From the IMG/VR virus record IMGVR_UViG_3300012017_000922, positions 1 to 28,216 of that record: a stretch of DNA of 28,216 nucleotides. One strand, given 5' to 3'. A program made the position numbers and the translations under genes. The notes beneath the pieces were generated by a model. The model had not been told where the DNA came from, ran no database searches, and saw only the letters and a program-made list of their open reading frames with translations. The DNA is from a virus. Position 1 is the first letter of the stretch; each line of letters starts with the position of its first letter. Below are positions 1-28,216 of the stretch, piece after piece.

Positions 1-299
1 AGATAGGAAGGAGTTGAAGATGTTGATGATGGAGTAGGTGTTAATGATGGTGTTACACTTGGAGTTGCTGAAGGAGTAACACTTGGGGTTTCAGATGGAG
101 TTTCTGAAGGAGTAACACTTGGGGTTTCAGATGGTGTTACACTTGGAGTTTCTGAAGGAGTAACACTTGGGGTTTCAGATGGTGTTACACTTGGGGTTTC
201 AGATGGTGTTACACTTGGAGTTTCAGATGGTGTTATACTTGGAGTTAATGATGGGGTTGGAGTTGGTGATAATGTTGGTGTTGGGGTTGGAGTAACATA
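1..299 (-). repeat. Thr-Pro-Ser coding repeat tract (second rod of the giant adhesin)
   Basis: Near-identical 12-base units encode ETPS/VTPS repeats, with alternate cores tctgaaggagta and tcagatggtgtt. The tract joins the cysteine-rich insert (303-605) to the first delta-60 block across the circular junction, so the 55-base closing overlap lies at its edge. Confidence 0.85.
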
Positions 300-1928
300 T
301 GGTGCAAAATTTACAATAGTTGGACATGCACATGCCGACGTATCAACATTGTTCACACTAAAACCTGTTACACATTCACCAGGTTGTAATACAGGATTTA
401 AATTAAAACTATGATTATGGTCTCCTTGTGCGATTGTTTCAGTTCCACAATAAATCGTACCTAAATCACCATATGCACATCCTGATACAATATAATTGCA
501 AAATGCGTTTGCTGGACTTGTAAATGATGGGTCATTAAATAATGATAATTGAAAATTATGACAACCACCAAAATCAACTTCCAAATATTGTGTAATAATT
601 TGACAACTCGGAGTTATCGATGGAGTTAATGATGGTGTCGGTGTTAAAGATGGAGTTTCACTTGGTGTTACACTCATAGATGGTGTCAATGATGGGGTTA
701 CACTCGGAGTTTCAGATGGAGTAACACTTGGGGTTTCTGATGGGGTTAATGATGGTGTAGGTGTTAAAGATGGAGTTTCAGATGGTGTTACACTCGGAGT
801 TTCTGATGGGGTTGCAGTTGGGGTTTCAGATGGTGTTAATGATGGTGTCGGTGTTAAAGATGGAGTTACACTTGGAGTTGCAGTTTCTGATGGAGTCGGA
901 GTTGGACTTTCAAAAGGAGTAACACTTGGAGTTTCTGACGGGGTTGCAGTTGGAGTTTCTGAAGGAGTTAATGATGGTGTAGGTGTTAAAGATGGAGTTT
1001 CTGAAGGAGTAATACTTGGGGTTTCTGATGGGGTTAATGATGGTGTAGGTGTTAAAGATGGAGTTTCACTCGGTGTTACACTTGGAGTTTCTGAAGGAGT
1101 TAATGATGGTGTAGGTGTTAAAGATGGAGTTACACTTGGAGTTTCTGATGGGGTTAATGATGGTGTCGGTGTTAAAGACGGAGTTTCACTCGGTGTTATA
1201 CTCGGAGTTTCTGATGGGGTTAATGATGGTGTAGGTGTTAAAGATGGAGTTTCTGAAGGAGTAATACTTGGAGTTTCACTCGGTGTGACACTCATAGATG
1301 GAGTAATACTTGGGGTTTGACTTGGTGTAATACTTGGGGTTTCTGATGGAGTCGGAGTTGGGGTTTTAGATGGGGTTAATGATGGTGTAGGTGTTAAAGA
1401 TGGGGTTCCTGAAGGAGTAACACTCGGAGTTTCTGATGGGGTTGCAGTTGGAGTTGGGGTAAGAGTTGGAGTTGGTGTTGGAGATACATACTGGTCGCAT
1501 GCATTAATATCTTCAAAATATACTATATTAATATCCAATGCAACACCACCAATATGGTCATTGAATCTTTCAACAAATGTGTTTGATATAACAGGTACAA
1601 CAACATCAAAATAATCATAAAATGTTCCACCTTTATTTGAAATCTGACTCATGAAATCTCTTGCTGCAAGACTCATATCACTTACAACATCAACCTGATT
1701 TGATAAATCTGTATTAACAATATCACCAAAAATTATGGATAAATTTGCTTGTGTTGTATTTTCATCATAAGTAAATTGAAGTGGTGTTACAAACATTAAT
1801 GGATATAATGTGTTCTCATTTCTTTCACCAAAATAAACGATATCTCCATGACCAAAACTCTTCATTTTGATTGGAAGATTATCTTTAATTAATTCAATTA
1901 ATTTGTAATATGTTAAGTAATGTTGCAT
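1..1928 (-). CDS. Giant adhesin, N-terminal part (gene continues across the circular junction at 28161)
   Basis: The ATG is at 1928 and the frame runs open off the left edge. It continues in the same frame at 28161 and stops at 25797, giving about 1430 residues in all. Residues 1-145 closely match the start of the neighbouring 570-aa protein (shared motifs DIVNTD, SDM, RDF, FYDYFD, ERFNDH, NACDQY). Then come a long Thr-Pro-Ser rod (xTPS units, 604-1490), a globular insert of about 100 residues with eight cysteines (about 303-605), and a second rod (1-300). I checked the insert codon by codon and found no stop. The N-terminal domain probably anchors the protein to the virion; its size and position suggest a tail-terminator or neck protein, which is inference. 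The rods resemble stalks that carry the receptor-binding parts. The ATG lies 16 bases after the stop of the paralogue, so the two are probably co-transcribed. Confidence 0.85.
604..1490 (-). repeat. Thr-Pro-Ser coding repeat tract (long rod)
   Basis: A run of 12-base units encoding x-Thr-Pro-Ser, mixed with 6-base Thr-Pro units. A longer motif encoding [11 protein letters not shown] starts at 625, 745, 835, 967, 1033, 1099, 1153, 1219 and 1375. All spacings (54, 66, 90, 120, 132, 156) are multiples of 6, so changes in copy number keep the frame. This is typical of a slippage- and recombination-prone stalk. Short-read assembly may have collapsed or rearranged the tract. Confidence 0.9.
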
Positions 1929-1944
1929 ATTATATATATGAATC

Positions 1945-3657
1945 TTAATTTAATGACATTGAAGTTAATGAACCTACATTAAATCCTGTTCCAAGATTTG
2001 TATAGAATGCAGTATCTTCGGTTCCGTCATTATTTAATCTAACTAATCTATTTCTTGTTAATCCATTAAATGTTGAATATGCACCAGCTACCAATATTTT
2101 ACCATCAGGTTGTTCCATAAGAGAAGTTACAGTACCACCAAATGCTGACCCTAAATTTGTATAGAATGCAGTGTCTTCTGTTCCATCATTATTTAATCTA
2201 ATTAATCTATTTCTTGTTAATCCATTAAATGTTGTAAAATTACCAGCAATTAGTATTTTTCCATCAGATTGAATTAAGATATCGTTTGGACCAATAGTAA
2301 ATGCTGTTCCTAAGTTTGCATAGAATGCAGTATCTTCGGTTCCGTCATTATTTAATCTAGCGATTCTGTTTCTAGTATTTCCATTAAATGTTGTGAATCC
2401 ACCAACAATTACTATTTTACCATCGGATTGAGGAGCAACATAATTAATCTGACCACTAAATCCTGTTCCTAAATTTGTATAAAATGCAGTATCTTCTGTT
2501 CCATCAGAATTTAATCTAACAATTCTAAGTCTAGTATTTCCATTAAATGTTGAATATGAACCAACTACCAATATTTTTCCATCAGATTGAATAGCCGAAT
2601 GAAATAGTTGAGCACCAAATCCTGTTCCAACATTTGTATAAAATGCAGTATCTTCAGTTCCATCACTATTTAGTCTAACAATTCTGTTTCTAGTATTTCC
2701 ATTAAATGTTGTGAATCCGCCAATAACTACTATTTTTCCATCGGATTGAAGTGATGCCCAATTTAAAATAAGATTAAATGATGTACCTAAATTTGTATAG
2801 AATGCAGTATCTTCTGTTCCGTCATTGTTTAAACGAATTAAATATATTCTTGTTAATCCATTAAAAACACCAAAAGTACCGGCTAATATTATTTTTCCAT
2901 CAGGTTGAGTTATTGTTGTATTAACACCACCAGTGGTAAATGCTGTACCTAAATTTGTATAAAATGCAGTATCTTCTGTTCCATCACTATTTAATCTAAC
3001 AATTCTATTTCTAGTATTTCCATTAAATGTTGTATAACTATTACCAACTATTGTCATTCCTGTAAAAGTCACTGGTATAGATGATGGTGTTGGTGTTGGA
3101 GTTGGTGTTAAAGATGGAGTTACACTCGGAGTTTCTGATGGAGTTACACTCGGAGTTATTGATGGAGTTAATGAAGGTGTGGGTGTTACACTTGGAGATG
3201 GACTTGGAGATGGGATTGGTTCGTATTGGTCACACGCATTCATGTCCTCAAAGATTGTTACAGGAATATTTAATTCGACACCTCCCAAATGGTCATTAAA
3301 TCGTTCCAGAAACGTCGTTGATGTGTTTGGTAGGTCTGTATCAAAATAATCATAAAATACACCCAGCTTAATCTGTGATAGAAAATCCCTACATGCAAGA
3401 TTCATATCACTTATGACATTAACCTCATTACTCATGTCAGTGTTTACAATATCACAAAATAAAATGTTTAGTGTAAACTGAGTTGTATTTTCATTATATG
3501 TTATTTGATTTGGAACAACGTGCATCAAAGGATAAAGTGTTGGATTATTTTCTTTACCCAAATAACTTAAATCACCAGTATTAAAACTTTTAATTTTAAT
3601 TGGAAGATTTTGCGATATTAACTCAATTAGTTTTTTATAAGTTAAATAATGTTCCAT
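1945..3657 (-). CDS. Adhesin paralogue: neck/tail-terminator-like domain, Thr-Pro-Ser rod, one seven-repeat propeller block
   Basis: The protein has 570 residues. Residues 1-145 are the paralogue of the N-terminus of the next gene (start at 1928). Residues about 146-195 form a Thr-Pro-Ser rod (3074-3222). The rest holds seven repeats of about 52 residues with the core [19 protein letters not shown], resembling delta-60 repeats and probably one seven-bladed beta-propeller. The leading domain, with its LYPLM and RDF-type motifs, has the size of a siphovirus tail-terminator protein. That is inference, and it could be another neck or tail anchor. The gene sits between the chaperone-like gene and its longer tandem copy, 16 bases before the latter. 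Short and long forms may be mixed on one virion, or one may be a reduced version of the other. Confidence 0.85.
1951..3070 (-). repeat. Seven delta-60-like repeats (block A)
   Basis: Seven tandem units of about 156 bases, each with an FNG motif, an RLN[SN]DGTEDTAFY core and a Q.DGK end. The last unit lacks the DGK end and closes the protein. The DNA is also similar between units and with blocks B and C, which gives ample homology for recombination. Confidence 0.85.
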
Positions 3658-3674
3658 TCTTTAATAAATACTTT

Positions 3675-3986
3675 TTAACGAACGTTATTTTTACCCTGCA
3701 TTTTTTTCATTTCATTCTTCATTTCAATTGCCTCGTCCTTTTTATAAGATAAAAAATTCAAACATAGAATTACATTCATATTATTGATTTGTTCCATTTT
3801 TGTTATGTCATCATTACAGAGAATCATCAAGCATTTCCAATAAAACCTCGCAGTTTGGTTTTTATCTTTTGGAACATCTTCTTGAACTTGTTCTTTATCC
3901 TCGTCTTGACCATCTGTATTTGACTCTTCTGTTTCAAAGAATCCGCTAAAACTTTTGTGAATATTGTTACGCTTTGCAAAAAAAAA
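3675..3986 (-). CDS. -1 frame extension of the chaperone-like gene (fusion product about 268 aa)
   Basis: After a -1 slip in the T9 run, the frame stays open for 100 codons to TAA at 3675. It holds an acidic linker (ESNTDGQDEDKEQVQEDV), then a compact helical segment with FYWKCLMILC and LNFLSYKKDEAIEMKNEM. The same frame has an ATG at 3827, overlapping the zero-frame stop as TGATG. A separate 50-residue protein (MILCNDDITK...) is therefore an alternative or additional product by coupled re-initiation. A third option is a one-base error in the homopolymer, which would make one 268-residue gene. The linker composition and low third-position G/C support real coding in this frame. Confidence 0.6.
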   Translation of the reverse strand, partial: FFFAKRNNIHKSFSGFFETEESNTDGQDEDKEQVQEDVPKDKNQTARFYWKCLMILCNDDITKMEQINNMNVILCLNFLSYKKDEAIEMKNEMKKMQGKNNVR

Positions 3987-4480
3987 CCTGATACACTTAA
4001 ATAAAATTCTAATGGTAAATCCAAGAATTCTTCTGCTCGTTGTTCAATATCATTTGAATTATAATTTTCAATTTGATATTTGTTATTTTTTAATTTCTTA
4101 ACAACAGGTCGATATAATATGGCCATAATCTTATGAATGTTATCCAATACATTTTCACCATTTGAATATACCTCAAGGTCAACCCATTCTGCCATGGTTA
4201 ATTTATAAAAGTCTTGGACCAATCCATATTCCTTATCATTGTGTTTAAATTGAAAAATAATTTTACTTGGTTTTTCAACATGTAACATGGGTACTAGTTT
4301 CTTTTCAAGGAAATTAAAATTATCGGGTTCCAATTCTTTTAATTCATTTTCAGGAATACCAGTCAAAACAGAAATAATTTGAAATGTGTTTGGGTTACCA
4401 ATCTTGGTTAAAGTTTGGTAATGTCTAATTGTTAATGTTTCAGGTAATTCTATTTTTTGGTCGTTATTGTATATTATCAT
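3827..4480 (-). CDS. Tail-assembly-chaperone-like protein, zero-frame product
   Basis: The zero-frame product has 217 residues. The ATG overlaps the stop of the large terminase gene by a few bases (TCAT at 4477-4480). Visible motifs include VLTGIPENEL, LTMAEWVDLEVY and KIMAILYRPV, on a mostly helical alpha/beta core. No known fold is certain. Near the end, a run of nine T (minus strand; 3978-3986) lies where the frame reads GGT TTT TTT TTG. A -1 slip there opens a further 100 codons. The zero-frame tail after the run is Lys-rich and uses more G/C in third positions than the -1 frame, so it may be the less natural reading. This core-plus-frameshift layout is the hallmark of siphovirus tail chaperones, which coat the tape measure during assembly. 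An unusual point is that the gene lies far from the tape measure gene. Confidence 0.65.
   Translation of the reverse strand: MIIYNNDQKIELPETLTIRHYQTLTKIGNPNTFQIISVLTGIPENELKELEPDNFNFLEKKLVPMLHVEKPSKIIFQFKHNDKEYGLVQDFYKLTMAEWVDLEVYSNGENVLDNIHKIMAILYRPVVKKLKNNKYQIENYNSNDIEQRAEEFLDLPLEFYLSVSGFFLQSVTIFTKVLADSLKQKSQIQMVKTRIKNKFKKMFQKIKTKLRGFIGNA
3978..3986 (-). promoter_or_regulatory. Candidate -1 frameshift slippery run (T9)
   Basis: On the minus strand the zero frame reads GGT TTT TTT TTG. The T TTT TTG heptamer allows both tRNAs to re-pair after a one-base backward slip. I did not identify a clear downstream pseudoknot by eye. Confidence 0.5.
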
Positions 4481-5631
4481 ATGATTAATAGTTTTGATTT
4501 ATTGTCCAGGAATTGAACCACCACATATTTTGTGGCATCAATTAAGTGGTCTTTTCCTGTTGTTGTATTTGTTATGTTACCAATACGGTCCTTCTTAAAT
4601 TTATAGTTTGAGAATTCATTTATCAAATCAACTGAATCTTCATGTACATAAATTGAGAATTGTTTTAATTTTTGGATTGCATATAAGATACTGGTCTTGC
4701 TAACCGGTCTAACATTTAATCCATGTTTTTTTAATTCACTGATTGATTTTGGTTCTGCTGAATCACAGACAATGTTTGCGTTTCTGTCAATACCAATCTC
4801 TTTTATTTTAAATGCAAGGTCTTCGTTTGTTAATCCCAAATCATATATAATTTGTTTTATATATATATTTTTTCCATCCACATTTACTTCGACCATTGCA
4901 CATTCATCATTGGAAAAACCAAAGTCAATACCATAATATTTCGATTTAATTGTTGGAGGTAATGATGTATATGTTTTTGGTTGGGTGAATATCTTTTCTT
5001 TTGGTTCGACTATGAGACCTAAATTATATATTTGATATAAGTCCTCATCAACATTTTTTAAATCTTTGATTGCTTGAATTGTTGCATCATCCAAAAATGG
5101 ATTTTGATTAAATGTTGAATGTATCATTATTCCATTCTCTTTATTTTCATAATCCAAACCCCACCAATCCATTGGAATTTCGGGGTTATAACAACAGATA
5201 ATATATTTGGATGTTCTTATATCGAGTTGAACAAATTCGTTCTTATTACACGTGTTTATTTCATCCACAAGAACAATGTCACTCTTTAACCCACGGAGTT
5301 TACCAGTAGAATCATCAAGACCAATAAATCTTACAATTGAACCATTATCAAATTTATATATAAGTTCTGACTTATTGAAATTTTCATCTTTGAATATATC
5401 TAATGATTCCAAGATTGATTTGAAATCTTGAATGATTGTTGCTTTAAGACTGACTTGGGTTGCTCTGGCAATGGTTAATGTTATTTTATTTAATAAACAT
5501 TCAACCACCACATTTTGTGTTGCAGCATAAGTTTTACCACTACGAGTTGAACCACGCAAAAAGATATATCTTTTGTTATCAGTCTTTGCGTTTTCTATTT
5601 TTTCATATAGTTCACTTACCTGAAGCTTCAC
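4477..5631 (-). CDS. terL: Terminase large subunit
   Basis: This is the ATP-driven motor that packages DNA through the portal and cuts it. The protein has 384 residues, slightly short for the family. Walker A is GSTRSGKT at residues 27-34. Walker B is IVLVDEIN, with the acidic pair at about 123-124. The C-terminal RNase-H-like nuclease has GIDFGFS (Asp236), VCDSAEP (Asp about 290) and KDHLIDATK (Asp361/365). The start is a GTG at 5631, inside the end of the 56-aa small gene, preceded by an A/G-rich stretch. The small terminase lies upstream, which fits a packaging cassette. Its stop overlaps the start of the chaperone-like gene. The call is secure. Confidence 0.96.
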   Translation of the reverse strand: MKLQVSELYEKIENAKTDNKRYIFLRGSTRSGKTYAATQNVVVECLLNKITLTIARATQVSLKATIIQDFKSILESLDIFKDENFNKSELIYKFDNGSIVRFIGLDDSTGKLRGLKSDIVLVDEINTCNKNEFVQLDIRTSKYIICCYNPEIPMDWWGLDYENKENGIMIHSTFNQNPFLDDATIQAIKDLKNVDEDLYQIYNLGLIVEPKEKIFTQPKTYTSLPPTIKSKYYGIDFGFSNDECAMVEVNVDGKNIYIKQIIYDLGLTNEDLAFKIKEIGIDRNANIVCDSAEPKSISELKKHGLNVRPVSKTSILYAIQKLKQFSIYVHEDSVDLINEFSNYKFKKDRIGNITNTTTGKDHLIDATKYVVVQFLDNKSKLLII

Positions 5632-6172: not shown

Positions 6173-6670
6173 TTATATATGTTTCCACTTTTTATTATTA
6201 AGTATTCTGCTAACTTGACTAACACTTAGTAGAAATATATTTGCTAAATCTTTTTGTTTGTAACCACCAGTTTTATACATTGAACGTAAATTTTGAACTT
6301 CAAATTCAGTAAGTTTTGACATCCCATTTTTTTCGCCCTTTAAAGGGTCTTTTAGATTATTTGCAAATGCATGTTTCATATTTTCACTACAAGTTACCCA
6401 TTCCAAATTTTCAATGTTATTATCCGTTTTAATTCCATTGATATGATTACATTGAAGAGTTTTATCATCGGTGGGTTTAAAGGTTTCTAGTATCATCCTA
6501 TGTACTTTTTTCGTGATTTTTTTACCATCGATATGGATTGATGTACAAACATATCCTTTGTTGTTTATTGTGGTGGCCATTTTTTTTAATTCCCCTGATT
6601 TATTGGAATATACATCTCCTTCTTCTGTTACATAATAGTCGGTTTTTTCATACTGTTTTAAATTGGTCAT
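6173..6670 (-). CDS. HNH endonuclease with NUMOD4-like start and helix-turn-helix tail
   Basis: The protein has 165 residues. An N-terminal YYVTEEGDVYSNKSGE segment resembles NUMOD4. Next comes the HNH core, VHRMILETFKP, then CNHINGIKTDNNIENLEWV, with the catalytic His-Asn-His pattern intact. The C-terminal helix-turn-helix is KLTEFEVQNLRSMY ... YKQKDLANIFLLSVSQVSRIL. This is the architecture of free-standing homing endonucleases in phages. It sits just upstream of the small terminase, a site where HNH genes often occur and sometimes help packaging. Its tail is homologous to those of the genes at 7566 and 8911. I read it as a mobile gene. Confidence 0.9.
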   Translation of the reverse strand: MTNLKQYEKTDYYVTEEGDVYSNKSGELKKMATTINNKGYVCTSIHIDGKKITKKVHRMILETFKPTDDKTLQCNHINGIKTDNNIENLEWVTCSENMKHAFANNLKDPLKGEKNGMSKLTEFEVQNLRSMYKTGGYKQKDLANIFLLSVSQVSRILNNKKWKHI

Positions 6671-7565: not shown

Positions 7566-8060
7566 ATGAAAAATTTTTTTGAAAACTATTATGTTACACA
7601 ACACGGTGAAGTCTACCAAAAGACTGATAACGAGTATGTTTGGGTTGAACCAAGAATGTGGCAAGGACTAAGGGTGCTCGATTTATTTGATACCAAAAAT
7701 AGAAAGAAAATACGATTTAAAATTCATCGACTGGTTGCGGAAACATATATTCCAAATCCAGAAAATCATAATGAAGTTATTCATATTGATTTTAATAAAT
7801 TAAATAATCATGTTGATAACTTAAAATGGGTCCCTCGATACTATTCACTGCATTATACAAAACATCAAAATCATAATGCAAGTGGTGAAATGCACGGTAA
7901 TGCAAAAATAAGGGAAGAACAGGTTATCTTTATCCGCGAAAACTTTTATCAAATGGGTATAACTCAAAAAGCAATGGGACAAATGTTTGGTATTAATCAA
8001 CAAACTGTTAGCAATATTTTACATAATAAAAGTTGGAATAAAATCAAAGATAATGAATAA
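7566..8060 (+). CDS. HNH endonuclease with helix-turn-helix tail (second copy)
   Basis: The protein has 164 residues. NUMOD4-like N-terminus (YYVTQHGEVYQKTDNEYVW), HNH core (IHRLVAETYIPN, VIHIDFNKLNNHVDNLKWV), and C-terminal helix-turn-helix (ITQKAMGQMFGINQQTVSNIL). The HNH region reads IHIDFNKLNN rather than the usual NHxxGxKxNN, so activity is less certain than for the copy at 6173. It is the first gene of the plus-strand operon and ends 8 bases inside the replication gene. I read it as a mobile homing-type gene in the early operon. Confidence 0.88.
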   Translation: MKNFFENYYVTQHGEVYQKTDNEYVWVEPRMWQGLRVLDLFDTKNRKKIRFKIHRLVAETYIPNPENHNEVIHIDFNKLNNHVDNLKWVPRYYSLHYTKHQNHNASGEMHGNAKIREEQVIFIRENFYQMGITQKAMGQMFGINQQTVSNILHNKSWNKIKDNE

Positions 8061-8910: not shown

Positions 8911-9111
8911 ATGAAAAACCCTAAACATCGATATGGCGAGAATCATGGTCGCAGTAAACTAAGAGAAGACCAAGTGAGAGATATTCACTACCTTTATAAC
9001 ACGGGTAATTTAACCCAACAAGAAATTGCAACAGAATTAGGTGTGAACCAACGAACAGTTTCCAACATTGTTAACGGTAAAAGTTGGAGACATCTAAAAC
9101 TTGACGAATAA
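8911..9111 (+). CDS. Orphan helix-turn-helix protein derived from an HNH tail
   Basis: The protein has 66 residues. SKLREDQVRDIHYLYNTG followed by LTQQEIATELGVNQRTVSNIVNGKSW matches the last 55 residues of the HNH protein at 7566 (shared GE.HG..K.RE.QV, TQ.., GVNQ/GINQ, TVSNI...KSW) and also that at 6173. There is no nuclease domain. It is probably a DNA-binding domain left after loss of an HNH gene, or a domain recruited as a regulator. It is the last gene of the plus-strand operon. Confidence 0.75.
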   Translation: MKNPKHRYGENHGRSKLREDQVRDIHYLYNTGNLTQQEIATELGVNQRTVSNIVNGKSWRHLKLDE

Positions 9112-11985: not shown

Positions 11986-12525
11986 TTATTGAACAGTGAT
12001 ACCTGTCATGACCGCTTGGAGGGTAGTGGTCACATCAATTTCCATGGATGGATTAGGTTCACCACCTGACATAGTAAATGTCACACCGTTGGCATCGTTG
12101 TAAGCCTGACCCATTAACATGGAACCTGCACTTACGGTAAGACCATTTTCTTGGCCAACCAACCAATAACGACCGTTATTGTCTTCAATTATGATTATTA
12201 AATCATTGGGTTTGATAAGGTCAAACCATTTTGTACGTAAAATTTGGTCTAATTTAGGTAATGTTACAACTAAACTTGGGACAAATACTACTGATTGGGC
12301 TGTCTCGTTCACCTGAAGTTCTTCAGTAAACGAAGAAGACTGTTTTACAAGTTCGTACTTGTAAAATGTTCCTGTACCCGCAATCGCAGTGATGCCACCT
12401 GTTTGAGTTGATGTTACACCTGTAATTGCATTACCAGCTCCGCCTAAAACCCAAAGGGCTTTAACACCACCAGTACTTGCATTACGACAATCTAATGTAT
12501 GACCGCTCGAAATATAACAACTCAT
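11986..12525 (-). CDS. Virion structural protein (head decoration or tail tube)
   Basis: The protein has 179 residues. SGHTLDCRNASTGGVKALWVLG at the start, GTFYKYELVKQSSSFTEEL, and a C-terminal IIIEDNNGRYWLVGQENGLTVS-AGSMLMGQAYNDANG pattern of beta strands with Gly turns. It follows the major capsid gene by 35 bases and shares its terminator, so high expression is likely. This fits either a decoration protein or the major tail tube protein. No other clear tail tube is seen, which makes the second option attractive. Confidence 0.6.
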   Translation of the reverse strand: MSCYISSGHTLDCRNASTGGVKALWVLGGAGNAITGVTSTQTGGITAIAGTGTFYKYELVKQSSSFTEELQVNETAQSVVFVPSLVVTLPKLDQILRTKWFDLIKPNDLIIIIEDNNGRYWLVGQENGLTVSAGSMLMGQAYNDANGVTFTMSGGEPNPSMEIDVTTTLQAVMTGITVQ

Positions 12526-12560: not shown

Positions 12561-13505
12561 TTATTTGCAGATTGCGAAAGACGCTACGTCGAATACACCA
12601 AGACCATAAGTTACATTGGCCATGATTTTAACGATATCCTCGAACGGGTCGTAGACAGCTTTAACAGTCATTATCTCGGAATTCATACCGAACAAGTAGT
12701 AACCAGCAGGACCGGCGTAGTATGCGGACACACCATCAAGACCTACGGTTGGGATTACTCTTACATTGGTACCAGGTAACATCAACGACCATTCTTCACC
12801 GGTTGCGACACCTGCACTATCCATTGTAAACAAGTTAACAAAAGAAGAATTTCTCATGCTTGAAACAAGTCCACGATAGTTGGCGTAAGAACAGTAAATG
12901 ACAAGGTCATCACGATGTAATACGTTGGAAGGAATGTTTTCATAGATTTTGGTGAATACATCCAAACCGTTGCTTGAAGTAGCACCTGTGTATGCAATTT
13001 GTGTTGCACCGTTACCAGAGGTAATCAAGTATTCAACACCATTGAAACACTGAGAGTTAAATTCAGTAGCACCAGTTGCGGTTGTATTTCTCCACAATGC
13101 TTTTTCAACTTTGTTTGCAATTCTGTTAGAGATATCTTCCAAAATTACTTCTTCGAATGGAACATTCTCTTGGAAGTTCGCATCACTCAAAGATTGAGAA
13201 AGATATGTGTCATATAAAGAATAAGGACACAAAGTTTGGTTTACTTTTTTGTTACACAAATCAACGGTAACAAGGTTTTGGGTGGTTGTACCAGATTGGT
13301 TAAATCCGCAAGATAAATCTTGCAAATAAACGTCGTTTGTTACGAAACCAACTTTTTCGGTAGTACCTTTCAAATTAGGTCTTACCGTAGCATATTTTGG
13401 AAGAGTCAATCCCAAAACTGCTTTAATTAACATATCCGAACCATATGAATTGTAGGTTGGGAGATTTGTTAAATCATAAGCGAAATTTAATTTCTGTTTA
13501 TTCAT
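12561..13505 (-). CDS. Major capsid protein
   Basis: The protein has 314 residues. An N-terminal segment is followed by a long helix region (NRIANKVEKALWRNTT, about 130-150, like the HK97 spine helix). The rest has strands such as DDLVIYCSYANYRGLV, TMDSAGVATG, PGTNVRVIPTVGL and AYYAGPAGYYLFGMNSEIMTVKAVYDPF, the usual A-domain and P-domain pattern of HK97-fold capsids. Between the scaffold and a structural protein, 11 bases after the scaffold gene, its position is also diagnostic. Its transcript ends at the strong terminator near 11940. Confidence 0.88.
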   Translation of the reverse strand: MNKQKLNFAYDLTNLPTYNSYGSDMLIKAVLGLTLPKYATVRPNLKGTTEKVGFVTNDVYLQDLSCGFNQSGTTTQNLVTVDLCNKKVNQTLCPYSLYDTYLSQSLSDANFQENVPFEEVILEDISNRIANKVEKALWRNTTATGATEFNSQCFNGVEYLITSGNGATQIAYTGATSSNGLDVFTKIYENIPSNVLHRDDLVIYCSYANYRGLVSSMRNSSFVNLFTMDSAGVATGEEWSLMLPGTNVRVIPTVGLDGVSAYYAGPAGYYLFGMNSEIMTVKAVYDPFEDIVKIMANVTYGLGVFDVASFAICK

Positions 13506-16382: not shown

Positions 16383-19313
16383 TTATAATGTCGTTAATTG
16401 TTCCAATTTTCTGTTGATGGTTTGTGCATTGGTAATATCTGATTCAAATACATAAGCACGAATTGGTTCTTGTCTACCTTTTGCAAGAACTTCAACCAAA
16501 CGAGAATCAAGAACATTGTTGATGATTGGACGACCTCCACCCGATTCATTAATTGATGATAACAACCCACCATAATTTAAGGATGATTGACGATTAATTA
16601 CAGCCTCACCACCTTCTAATTCGAATCTTCCAAAATCAACACCACCTTGTTCGTGAGATGGACCCACGACCATACCACCAGTTGCCATTTGTTTTTTAAT
16701 CTTACCACCACGTCTCAATGATTGTGCTTGAGCAATTTGTTGACGAATGGTAGCAATGGACGCTGTGGCCAATAACCCTTCAATACCAATGATGATGGCT
16801 TTTCCTGCGGGACCAAGATTTGGATTGGCCAATGTCGTTACAACCGCTTGTGCTGCACTTGCAATCGTTTGAATTAAGGTCGCTTGAAGAGATGAAATTC
16901 TTGCTTGTTTTTCAATCTGTTTCTTTTTTTCTTGATAGATTTTTTCGGCTTCTGTTCTTTTTGCATTTGCTTCAACCGTATCACCAACAATATTATCCAT
17001 TGTTTTTTGATAGTCACTTTCCAATTTTTCCAATTGCATTGAAAATTGTGTTTGTGTTAATTGACCAATTGTATTAATTGCATTTGAAAAAGTTTGAAGA
17101 TAAGTTTGAATATTACCTAACGCAGTTTGGAATGAATCATCAGCTGGTTTTACATTAGTTGCGGTATTGATTGCGGTTTGTAATTCTAATGCACGATTTT
17201 TTAATTTCTCAAGTTCAACAGGGTCAATAACACCTGCAACATAATCATTGATTTGTTTTTTAACTCTCGCCAATTCACCTTGGATTGCCGCCAAATCTTC
17301 TTGAGGAGTTATTCCTTCAATAAATGGTCCACCAAATTCCGTTGTTAATCTTCCTTCTAATTGTGCTCTTCTTGTATTGAGAGCATTTAAATCCTGATTA
17401 TATTTTTCATATATACGGATTTTTTCATCAACCAATTTTTTCTCCGTTTGTAAATCACGGAGTTTTCTCTGGTTGTCAAGATTTGTAATTTCTCTATCTA
17501 ATCTTTCCTTATCACCTTTATAGGTTTCTTGGAGTTTTAATAAATCAGTAAAATATTGTTTGTCGTTTTGTAAAACTTCCTCATTGGATTTCTTTTCCGC
17601 TTGAGTTATTTCATTAACTAATTTTAAACGTTCAATATTAATTTTTCGTAATAACTCTAAACTTTTTTGATATCTGTCGGTTTCTAATTTTACTATTGCG
17701 GCTAATCTTGATTGTTCTATAAAAGTTAAATCTCTATTTTGACCTTGTAAAATTTTTTCTTTTTCTCTAAATTCAACAAAAGATTTAAATTTATTTAATT
17801 CGGCTGTTTCAAATTGTTTAAATTCTCTTTCATATAATTCAATTTGATTATTTAGATTTTGTTTTCCTAAATTTTCTTGTAATTCATTTAAAGATTTTAA
17901 CCCTTCAATAATTTGTTTATTAGCAAATTCAACAGCATCAGTACGTTGTTTTTGTGTTAATCTTTCTAAGATTATATTTTTCTTAAAATATTCTGTATCA
18001 TAAATTTCAAAGTAGTCTTGAAAGAATTTTTGAAATTGTTCTAAAGTTCTTTTTTGAGATAAAGCAAATTTATCAGATTCACTTAAAAAATTCTCTTCTT
18101 GTAAATCATCAATTGTTTTGAAAAAAGTTTCATAAATTTTTGCTCTATCTTGATTATATTTTTTCTCAAGATTAAGTCTATCTTGTTTTCTTGTTTTATC
18201 AATTTTATCTAAATCAGTATTAAATTTTTCTTCTAATGTGGCTAATTCTCTTAAAGTTTGATTTTCAATAAGACTAATTTCTAACGCTCTACTTTCAGCT
18301 CGACGTTCTTTATTAATACGAGCTTGTTCTTCACGTTGTTTTTTCTTTTCATTGGTGATTTCAATCTCATTTTTCAATTGTTGATTACCTAATGTAATTA
18401 AAGAATTGGTGGTCGTAACGTAATCCTTATTTAATTGTTTAAGTAAATCAAGTTCTTCTTTTGTTGCCCTTCCTGTTGCTTTTAAATTTGATAATCTTGC
18501 AATTTGATTATTTAATTGTTGTTGTAGAAGTGTTAACATTCTACGTTCATTATCAACACCCTGTTGTCTTAATCTAGCAATTTCTTGTTCTGATGCTCCA
18601 CGTTTTTCAGCCAATAAAACTTGTTGTTCATCAAGTAATTTTTGTCTTGCGATTTCTTGATTTGTATTTTGTGCCGCATTTTGTAGTTTTTCTAAACTAA
18701 CAGCCGCTTCATCCACAGAATCACTAAACGCAAGATATGCGGCTGCTAACGCACCAACTACCGCAAGTATTGCTGTATATGGATTCGCTAATAAGGTTGC
18801 ATACAACGCTCTCAAATTGGCGGTGAGTCCTCTTGTTGCAATTGTTTGTGCCGTGGTCGCAAGGGTTGCCGCTTTGGTTGATGCAACTTGAATTAATGTA
18901 TTCGCACTGACCGCAACTTCTGCAATGGCTCTAGCACCTAATGCTACTGTTAATAAATTTTGTGCGGTTGTTGCCGCCTTGGTAATCTGTTCTTGAGATT
19001 CTTGTTCAGCACCCAATAATTGTGCTGCTGCAGTAGCCGCAGCAAAACCAGCGGTAACACCTCCTGTGAATTTCCCTACCGCTTCAATTTGACGTTCAAG
19101 AGATATCCCTTCTGACCTTTTATTAAAGTCTTCTAATTCACCTGATGCGGCACGTAATTCACCTTGTAAACGTTTAAATTCATCACTCCCAATCGCAACA
19201 CCTTTTAATCTCTGTTGGAGATTTTGAATTTCAGTTTCAAGTTCTTTAATTGATGATACTGTTTTACTTACACCATCAATTTTAATTTCTAAACCAATTG
19301 TTCTAACTGCCAT
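16383..19313 (-). CDS. Tape measure protein
   Basis: The protein has 976 residues. It sets tail length and helps DNA entry. Coiled coils cover most of residues 210-720, rich in Gln, Lys and Glu. Hydrophobic segments lie near 165-200 (LLANPYTAILAVVGALAAAYLAF) and 840-885. The C-terminus has ATGGMVVGPSHEQGGVDF ... ELEGGEAVINRQSS, a motif common at the ends of tape measures. Scaled at about 1.5 Angstrom per residue, it implies a tail of roughly 145 nm. It lies 15 bases before the protease gene. Confidence 0.95.
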   Translation of the reverse strand: MAVRTIGLEIKIDGVSKTVSSIKELETEIQNLQQRLKGVAIGSDEFKRLQGELRAASGELEDFNKRSEGISLERQIEAVGKFTGGVTAGFAAATAAAQLLGAEQESQEQITKAATTAQNLLTVALGARAIAEVAVSANTLIQVASTKAATLATTAQTIATRGLTANLRALYATLLANPYTAILAVVGALAAAYLAFSDSVDEAAVSLEKLQNAAQNTNQEIARQKLLDEQQVLLAEKRGASEQEIARLRQQGVDNERRMLTLLQQQLNNQIARLSNLKATGRATKEELDLLKQLNKDYVTTTNSLITLGNQQLKNEIEITNEKKKQREEQARINKERRAESRALEISLIENQTLRELATLEEKFNTDLDKIDKTRKQDRLNLEKKYNQDRAKIYETFFKTIDDLQEENFLSESDKFALSQKRTLEQFQKFFQDYFEIYDTEYFKKNIILERLTQKQRTDAVEFANKQIIEGLKSLNELQENLGKQNLNNQIELYEREFKQFETAELNKFKSFVEFREKEKILQGQNRDLTFIEQSRLAAIVKLETDRYQKSLELLRKINIERLKLVNEITQAEKKSNEEVLQNDKQYFTDLLKLQETYKGDKERLDREITNLDNQRKLRDLQTEKKLVDEKIRIYEKYNQDLNALNTRRAQLEGRLTTEFGGPFIEGITPQEDLAAIQGELARVKKQINDYVAGVIDPVELEKLKNRALELQTAINTATNVKPADDSFQTALGNIQTYLQTFSNAINTIGQLTQTQFSMQLEKLESDYQKTMDNIVGDTVEANAKRTEAEKIYQEKKKQIEKQARISSLQATLIQTIASAAQAVVTTLANPNLGPAGKAIIIGIEGLLATASIATIRQQIAQAQSLRRGGKIKKQMATGGMVVGPSHEQGGVDFGRFELEGGEAVINRQSSLNYGGLLSSINESGGGRPIINNVLDSRLVEVLAKGRQEPIRAYVFESDITNAQTINRKLEQLTTL

Positions 19314-25796: not shown

Positions 25797-28216
25797 TTAA
25801 CTTAATTGAACTGAAGTAACTGAAGAATTAAATGCTGTTCCAAGATTTGTATAGAATGCGGTATCTTCGGTTCCGTCTGAATTTAATCTAACTAATCTAT
25901 TTCTTGTTAATCCATTAAATGTTGTATATAAACCGCCCACTAATATTTTTCCATCGTTTTGGGCATTAATAAAATTAGTAGCACTAGTACCAAATGCTGT
26001 TCCTAAATTTGTATAGAATGTAGTATCTTCGGTTCCATTACTGTTTAAACGAATTAATCTATTTCTAACATTACCATTAAATAATGTAAATGCACCACCA
26101 ATTAGTATTTTTCCATCAGATTGAATTAAGATATCGGTTGCACTTGTAGTAAATGCTGACCCAAGATTTGTGTAGAATGCAGTATCTTCAGTTCCATCAC
26201 TATTTAATCTAATTATTCTATTTCTAACATTACCATTAAATCCTGTAAAATTACCAACTATTACTATTTTTCCGTCAGATTGTAATTTAACATCACTAGT
26301 AATAGCACTAAATGATGTACCTAAGTTTGTATAGAATGCCGTATCTTCGGTTCCATCATTGTTCAATCGAACAAATCTATTTCTTGTAATACCATTTAAT
26401 GTTGTATATTGACCAGCAACTAAAATTTTTGTATCGGATTGTTCTTGAAATCCTCTCACAACATCACCAAATCCTGTTCCTAAATTTGCATAAAACGCGG
26501 TATCTTCAGTTCCGTCTGAATTTAATCTAATTATTCTATTTCTTGTATTTCCATTAAAATTAGTAAATAAACCACCCACTAATATTTTTCCGTCAGATTG
26601 TACAAATATTGCTTCGACACTAAAACTAGCACCAGTAAAAGCAGTTCCAAGATTTGTATAGAATGCCGTATCTTCGGTTCCATTACTATTTAAACGAACT
26701 AATCTATTTCTTGTATTTCCATTTAATGATGTTATAGTACCTCCAACTAATATTTTTCCATCAGATTGTATTGTTGTACAAGCTATATTACCAACAAATC
26801 CTGTTCCAAGATTAGTATAAAATGATGTATTTTCTGTTCCATCATTATTTAATTGAATCATTCTGGCTCTTGACAATCCATTAAAAGTAGCAAAATTACC
26901 ACCGACTAATATTTTTTGAAGAGGCAATGTTGATGGTGTAGGAGATGGTGTAACACTTGGTGCGCCTCCTTGACTTGGTGTTGGAGTTGGAGTTGGGGTT
27001 AATGATGGTGTTATGCTTGGTGTTGGTGTTGGAGTAACCGGTGGAACGGTACCAAAATTTAATAATATTGCTAATACTGTTAAATTAAATGATGCTCCTA
27101 AGTTTGAATAAAATGAGGTATCTACAGTTCCATCTGAATTTAATCTCATTCCATATAATCTAGATACACTATTTAATTGTGTAAATGCACCACCAACAAC
27201 TATTTTCCCATCAGATTGAATTTCAATATCATGAACAGTATTATTATAACCCGTTCCAAGATTTGTGTAAAATGAAGTATCTTCTGTTCCGTCTGAATTT
27301 AATCTAATTAATCCATTTCTAGTATTACCATTAAATTGTGTTATAGTACCACCTACAACTATTTTACCATCTGATTGGATTTTACAACTATATACTTGAC
27401 CTGTAAATCCTGTTCCTATATTTGTTGTAAATGATGTGTCTTCTGTTCCATCTGAATTTAATCTAACTAAATCATTTGTAGTATTTCCATTAAATGTAGT
27501 CCAATTACCTGCTATCAATAATTTACCATCAGATTGAATAATGATATCATTAATCGGACCATCAAATGCTGTTCCTAAATTTGCATAAAACGCGGTATCT
27601 TCAGTTCCATCACTATTTAAACGAATTAATCTATTTCTTGTATTTCCATTAAATGAAGTATATACACCACCTACCAATATTTTTCCATCAGATTGTTCAT
27701 TTTGTACTCGAACAGTATCAGCAAATGATGTACCTAAATTTGTATAGAATGCAGTATCTTCAGTTCCATCACTATTTAAACGAACTAATCTATTTCTTGT
27801 ATTACCATTAAATGTTGAAAAAACACCTCCAACTAATATTTTTCCATCAGATTGTATTTTTACACATTGAGTAGTAGTATTAAATGCCGTTCCAAGATTT
27901 GTGTAGAATGCCGTATCTTCAGTTCCATCGCTATTTAAACGAACTAATTTATTTCTTGTAATACCATTTAATGTTCCGAATGAACCAGCAAGAATTATTT
28001 TATTATCAGATTGTCTATCTGCCCAATTAATCTGACCATTAAATCCTGTTCCTAAATTACTATAAAATGTTGTATCCTGTGTTCCACTTTCATCTAATTG
28101 TAAGGCTCTTTGTCTTACTTGACCATTAAATTGTGTAAATTGACCACCAAATAATAATTTAAGATAGGAAGGAGTTGAAGATGTTGATGATGGAGTAGGT
28201 GTTAATGATGGTGTTA
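25797..28216 (-). CDS. Giant adhesin, C-terminal part: two blocks of seven delta-60-like repeats
   Basis: This is the downstream part of the gene that starts at 1928; bases 28162-28216 duplicate 1-55. I translated from 28216 to 27678 by hand and found no stop, so an internal start near 27677 is not needed. After the rod come seven repeats of about 52 residues (pattern [32 protein letters not shown]...Q.DGK), then a short Thr-Pro-Ser linker (26932-27045), then seven more, ending at the stop. The repeats resemble the delta-60 family, which is expected to form beta-propellers, and seven per block fits a seven-bladed propeller. The likely role is receptor or glycan binding on the virion surface. 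The neck-protein gene starts one base after the stop. Binding specificity cannot be read from the sequence. Confidence 0.85.
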   Translation of the reverse strand, partial: TPSLTPTPSSTSSTPSYLKLLFGGQFTQFNGQVRQRALQLDESGTQDTTFYSNLGTGFNGQINWADRQSDNKIILAGSFGTLNGITRNKLVRLNSDGTEDTAFYTNLGTAFNTTTQCVKIQSDGKILVGGVFSTFNGNTRNRLVRLNSDGTEDTAFYTNLGTSFADTVRVQNEQSDGKILVGGVYTSFNGNTRNRLIRLNSDGTEDTAFYANLGTAFDGPINDIIIQSDGKLLIAGNWTTFNGNTTNDLVRLNSDGTEDTSFTTNIGTGFTGQVYSCKIQSDGKIVVGGTITQFNGNTRNGLIRLNSDGTEDTSFYTNLGTGYNNTVHDIEIQSDGKIVVGGAFTQLNSVSRLYGMRLNSDGTVDTSFYSNLGASFNLTVLAILLNFGTVPPVTPTPTPSITPSLTPTPTPTPSQGGAPSVTPSPTPSTLPLQKILVGGNFATFNGLSRARMIQLNNDGTENTSFYTNLGTGFVGNIACTTIQSDGKILVGGTITSLNGNTRNRLVRLNSNGTEDTAFYTNLGTAFTGASFSVEAIFVQSDGKILVGGLFTNFNGNTRNRIIRLNSDGTEDTAFYANLGTGFGDVVRGFQEQSDTKILVAGQYTTLNGITRNRFVRLNNDGTEDTAFYTNLGTSFSAITSDVKLQSDGKIVIVGNFTGFNGNVRNRIIRLNSDGTEDTAFYTNLGSAFTTSATDILIQSDGKILIGGAFTLFNGNVRNRLIRLNSNGTEDTTFYTNLGTAFGTSATNFINAQNDGKILVGGLYTTFNGLTRNRLVRLNSDGTEDTAFYTNLGTAFNSSVTSVQLS
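25803..26920 (-). repeat. Seven delta-60-like repeats (block C)
   Basis: The C-terminal seven units of the giant adhesin, from KILVGGNFATFNG to the final FNSSVTSVQLS. Units are about 52-54 residues long. As in block A, the block starts with a lone ILVGG strand and ends without DGK, as expected for a propeller closed by its first and last strands. Confidence 0.85.
27046..28185 (-). repeat. Seven delta-60-like repeats (block B)
   Basis: Seven units directly after the second rod. The first (YLKLLFGGQFTQFNG) and the last (ending LAILLNFGTVPP) are the most diverged, as expected for the edges of a closed propeller. The block is separated from block C by the linker at 26932-27045. Confidence 0.8.

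Follow-up and report, generated by a model that had tools for sequence, protein, structure and literature searches.

We found that a gene on the minus strand of a phage genome probably yields two tail-chaperone-like products, a core and a longer form extended in the -1 frame, through slippage of RNA polymerase on a run of nine T. We consider this the best explanation of the whole, and a likely one rather than a firm one. Comparison across relatives showed, at the level of sequence, that the extension is coding, homologous across the family, and fused to the core. The DNA analyzed here (28,216 bases in all, hereafter the window) carries a 55-base terminal repeat and is therefore circularly mapping. 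Its relevant features are:

1-55 and 28162-28216: 55-base direct terminal repeat, giving a circle of about 28.16 kb
4477..5631, minus strand: terminase large subunit (PF04466/PF17288), directly upstream of the core ORF
3980..4480, minus strand: putative chaperone-like core, 167 aa, with the motifs YGLVQDFYKLTMAEWVDLE and NIHKIMAILYRP
3978..3986, minus strand: T9 slip run, GGT TTT TTT TTG (T9-T12 in nearly all relatives)
3675..3980, minus strand: -1 frame extension, 101 codons plus the stop TAA (3677-3675)
3864..3935, minus strand: acidic linker of the extension (ETEESNTDGQDEDKEQVQEDVPKD), from the translation
3678..3848, minus strand: conserved C-terminal domain of the extension (RFYWKCLMILCNDDITKM...LNFLSYKKD)
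3827..3979, minus strand: basic zero-frame tail, 50 codons plus the stop TGA (3829-3827)
3825..3827, minus strand: ATG overlapping the zero-frame stop, which may serve the last 50 codons as a start, though not as the general one
16383..19313, minus strand: tape measure protein (phrog_25337), about 12.5 kb downstream of the gene on the circular map

Reading frames of the gene and other features of the window

The zero-frame ORF (4480-3827, minus strand) encodes 217 aa and follows the large terminase (5631-4477). The run of nine T within it corresponds to A9 on the plus strand (3978-3986), and -1 reading across it gives ...SGFFFAKRNNIHKSFSGFFETEESNTDGQDEDKEQ... and ends at 3677-3675. An earlier sequence-only reading had proposed that a -1 slip at nine T opens 100 further codons down to 3675; this was borne out, with T9 at 3986-3978. 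Its prediction of a lower third-position G/C in the -1 frame than in the zero-frame tail also held (GC3 of 0.30 versus 0.48), and since the core has a GC3 of 0.21, the -1 frame resembles the core more than the zero-frame tail does. Translation recovered the acidic linker that had been described, and the ATG at 3827 does overlap the zero-frame TGA (3829-3827), the two having one base in common (TGATG).

The core bears the motifs YGF...TxGExVDLE and NLHKIMAILYRP, and its YRP, Y, and FF are invariant over 44 relatives. The linker of the extension varies in sequence, yet is acidic in most relatives, and the C-terminal domain reads WGWYxxxYxLAxxDIxK...LxxLxxxKD among them. Homologues that keep the zero-frame tail and drop the -1 frame had been named as evidence against a frameshift; the reverse was found, with the -1 frame kept and a tail whose length is not, ranging from 23 to 76 codons.

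Elsewhere in the window, one tail-fiber-like gene crosses the joint of the circle (3..1928 and 25797..28214, minus strand). The tandem genes 1945-3657 and 3-1928 (minus strand) both carry a related N-terminal domain (about 160 aa in a relative), followed by low-complexity TPSVTPS linkers and then repeats; they appear to derive from duplication of one tail gene and to carry adhesin parts that can be exchanged. HNH homing endonuclease-like ORFs or C-terminal DNA-binding parts, recognized by eye at 6173-6670 (minus), 7566-8060 (plus), and 8911-9111 (plus), surround the small terminase and the replication side. A capsid-like gene (12561-13505, minus strand) is directly followed by a short gene (11986-12525, minus strand) that is tail-tube-like by eye and reads MACxLxxGRxxxCxDxxGGIKNIYF in relatives. 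The tape measure gene is at a large distance from this pair, a gene order that is unusual and common to the family.

Conservation of the T run and coding of the extension

Relatives were sought in IMG/VR by motifs of the core protein, not by the T run, and distant ones, which share the same plan at 26-30% protein identity, were first reached through the adjacent terminase. T9 and the open -1 frame are identical in three contigs about 99% alike in protein and in three at 78%, all from separate metagenomes, which makes an isolated homopolymer error very unlikely. Scanning all loci with a profile yielded 91 distinct sites, with a homologous -1 extension behind T8-T12 in all but three. Among these exceptions, the sequence of L060 breaks off ahead of the extension. 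In L007, the run at about 3231-3238 is T8 instead of T9 and the extension is in +1, either because a T was lost in assembly or as a true variant. In L063 (3743-4498), the run is only T5, and core and extension read as one ORF, a natural in-frame fusion; the two-product scheme may have been abandoned here, or the short form may arise in another way.

Clustering of the 91 sites at 80% left 46 non-redundant lineages. Comparison of the -1 frame protein with phage relatives, as the sequence-only reading had advised, gave a homologous extension in -1 in 44 of these (31 with T9, 11 with T10, one with T12, and L113 with T8), reaching down to about 25% protein identity and spanning a locus GC of 27-56%. 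A second scan with other members as query added 32 lineages (29 with T9 and three with T10), all in -1. The open -1 frame behind the run has a median length of 92.5 codons (range 48 to 103, the shortest in L043), and the +1 frame meets a stop after a median of 5 codons. Since the run and the homologous extension recur in 44/46 and 32/32 lineages, the run is not an assembly error. The idea of a frameshift extension of a core was thus upheld, the -1 frame being conserved over a large family and one lineage having the two parts fused in frame. A motif search revealed no relatives in bacterial genomes, a sequence search of the window protein against named phages gave no meaningful match, and one against PDB returned nothing meaningful; the only named-phage relatives, Nonlabens P12024L/S, were reached through other relatives.

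When the zero-frame tail of L001, the near twin of the window, was recoded synonymously, the -1 frame was open over the overlap in 0.05% of trials. The same recoding over 44 lineages gave a summed log10 p of about -72, a value that is overstated because related lineages were taken as independent. In 34 pairs of relatives, substitutions at positions 1/2/3 of the -1 frame numbered 356/205/401 inside the overlap and 195/124/412 beyond it. Codon position 3 of the -1 frame coincides with codon position 2 of the zero frame, and the fact that substitutions in the overlap fall mostly on it argues that the -1 frame is under selection there too. Additionally, the stretch from the run to the conserved domain contains no ATG, GTG, or TTG in 23 of the 44 lineages, and several extensions are without any ATG. 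Selection on the -1 frame in the overlap, the lack of start codons in these 23 lineages, and the in-frame fusion of L063 together indicate that the extension is produced as a fusion with the core.

The same comparisons bear on three other readings. Translation of the last 50 codons as a separate protein, started at ATG 3827 by stop-start coupling, would agree with the TGATG overlap in the window, with an ATG near the zero-frame stop in 11 of the 44 lineages, and with the annotation of Nonlabens phage P12024L (gene 41); it is nevertheless very unlikely, because that ATG falls within the first conserved block (RFYWKCLM), selection on the -1 frame acts between the run and the ATG, and the 23 lineages with no start ahead of the domain rule out an independent gene as the general route. 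Separate initiation at this ATG may occur beside the fusion. Phase variation, in which the length of the T tract would change at replication and switch the extension on and off in the population, is even less probable: long homopolymers do mutate, and the T8 of L007 puts its extension in +1, but with run lengths of 9, 10, 11, and 12 the extension never leaves the -1 frame relative to the core, whereas phase variation would put about a third of the sampled genomes in frame. A normal single gene broken by a sequencing or assembly error would be conceivable at a homopolymer, but dozens of independent metagenomes and the cultured phage P12024L show the same run and frame, so that the comparison across relatives in practice refutes this reading and leaves it a negligible probability.

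Level of the slip

With the fused extension as the preferred reading, we think that transcriptional slippage, which the sequence-only reading had not mentioned, is the more likely level of the slip, and we favor RNA polymerase with moderate confidence. On this proposal, the polymerase would stutter on T9, adding a U (or dropping two), and a fraction of the mRNAs would thereby be altered such that ordinary ribosomes read the -1 frame; on mRNAs one U short, translation would end within a few codons. The short product would consist of the core with a seemingly dispensable zero-frame tail, and slippage at T9 would give the long product, the core joined to the acidic linker and the conserved C-terminal domain.

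The run is nine to ten long in all three codon phases, whereas 9, 8, or 7, depending on the phase, would suffice for an all-T heptamer. Elsewhere on that strand, runs of at least nine T are rarer than chance (2 observed versus 7.8 expected in 308 kb), as expected if such runs are slippage-prone, although they occur at the slip site in 43 of the 46 lineages. Loci of 46-56% GC keep T9 at the site, and it is the sole T9 on that strand within the stretches examined. A conserved, unbroken run of about nine or more A/T at the junction, the hallmark sought for transcriptional slippage, is therefore present. Predicted downstream structure, in simple folds without pseudoknots, had a mean z of -0.02 (50 nt) and -0.38 (80 nt) against -0.11 in controls, and a stimulatory RNA structure was rejected for want of any excess over controls. 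In many bacterial genomes, selection against A/T runs begins at a length of nine (Baranov 2005, PMC1088944), and slippage in bacteria is described on runs of nine A or T (Atkins 2016, PMC5009743). Polymerase slippage is favored because at least nine T are kept whatever the codon phase, because such runs are rare elsewhere, and because downstream structure is lacking.

Ordinary programmed -1 ribosomal frameshifting at U UUU UUU or U UUU UUG, with the T run as a strong slippery site, is a possible alternative, but a clearly less probable one. Every -1 site contains T TTT TTT in phase, the GGT TTT TTT TTG of the window resembles the GGT TTT TTG of phage P2, and well-studied tail chaperones use the ribosome (Xu 2004, cited in PMC3711429; PMC5009743). 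Such a site can also work without a strong structure, one lineage (L113) carries T8, and the last T could partly be held by amino-acid constraint in both frames. Conversely, 8 or 7 T would be enough for a ribosomal site in phases 1 and 2, yet the runs there stay at a minimum of nine, including those in loci of 46-56% GC; no X XXY YYZ heptamer other than all-T was seen in about 76 lineages, and the simple folds gave no stimulatory structure.

Chaperone identity and comparison with known systems

By analogy, the gene fits a tail-assembly-chaperone-like gene of a siphovirus-type phage, while kinship with known chaperones is not established. The core ORF has a C-terminal extension reached by a frame change near the core end, as in the lambda G/GT type. 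The chaperone-like assignment of the sequence-only reading fits the architecture and the tail-module context, but database homology to known tail chaperones stayed below threshold. PF10109 (Phage_TAC_7) matched in six of the 44 relatives, at best with an E of 6.9e-5 and 23.2 bits, below the cut-off of 25, and the window core reached 15.1 bits against the Pfam tail-chaperone family, likewise below 25; an hhalign profile comparison with the Mu gp41/P2 E alignment was not significant. In PHROGs, the gene falls only in unnamed families (phrog_32199, with the split-off extension in phrog_38404), and the extension matches phrog_7255 weakly (E 0.005).

The position of the gene after the terminase and not beside the tape measure had been remarked on before; it is confirmed, and is normal for relatives of this gene. 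In the records searched for the terminase, the gene lies close behind TerL. Five relatives were mapped over their whole length; in these, the gene shares its strand with the large terminase and the tape measure gene and stands between the two, a few genes ahead of the tape measure. In the window, several genes and about 12.5 kb, counted across the joint of the circle, separate it from the tape measure gene, and no other chaperone candidate was seen beside that gene. Adjacency to the tape measure is usual for tail chaperones, not defining. The analogy to lambda G/GT and P2 E/E' suggests that the core would coat the tape measure protein and that the rarer long form would recruit the tail tube protein.

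Tail chaperones made by frameshifting are a standard example of recoding by the ribosome. A large unnamed phage family, with the flavobacterial phages P12024L/S as cultured members, may well set the ratio of its two chaperones by polymerase slippage on at least nine T, the new part being the family-wide rule of nine or more T. If so, transcription and not ribosomal frameshifting would carry out the lambda G/GT scheme, and selection would keep the two-product scheme whichever machine makes it. A search of the open-access literature found no report of transcriptional slippage in tail chaperones; as far as that literature shows, these would be the first run in this way. Our results also offer a likely function for the unannotated phrog_32199 and its split-off extensions, and an annotation marker for such phages (HKIMAILYRP, then T9, then the WGWY domain in -1).

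Tail chaperones with two products are a known kind (Xu 2004; PMC5009743). Lambda G/GT is similar in being a tail-module gene with a short core and a rarer product extended in -1 by a slip close to where the first ORF ends (gpG to gpGT, 30:1; PMC5009743). It differs in its slip site, which is not the T9-T12 of the window family, and in its place, G/T sitting between the major tail gene and the tape measure, whereas the window gene sits behind the terminase; no sequence kinship between the two was detected. P2 E/E' shares a -1 extension and a slip site, GGT TTT TTG, close to that of the window, and together with Mu gp41 (PF10109) it is linked to the gene by the sub-threshold Pfam match. Its run is, however, only T6 (T6G), its gene adjoins the tape measure, homology with the window gene is not established, and E' is annotated as a translational frameshift. 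Thermus dnaX, Shigella mxiE/spa13, and IS-element orfA-orfB resemble the window gene in that A/T runs give two products per gene, with runs of nine in dnaX and many IS elements (PMC1088944, PMC5009743), although none of them is a phage tail gene. The true relatives are genes 40 and 41 of Nonlabens P12024L/S, in which TerL is followed by the core (phrog_32199), T9, and a -1 extension resembling phrog_38404. The P12024L record annotates them as two hypothetical proteins and is without mention of a frame change; at 11989-12683 of L104 (JQ823123.1 23946-24640), they look like the core and the -1 extension of one gene.
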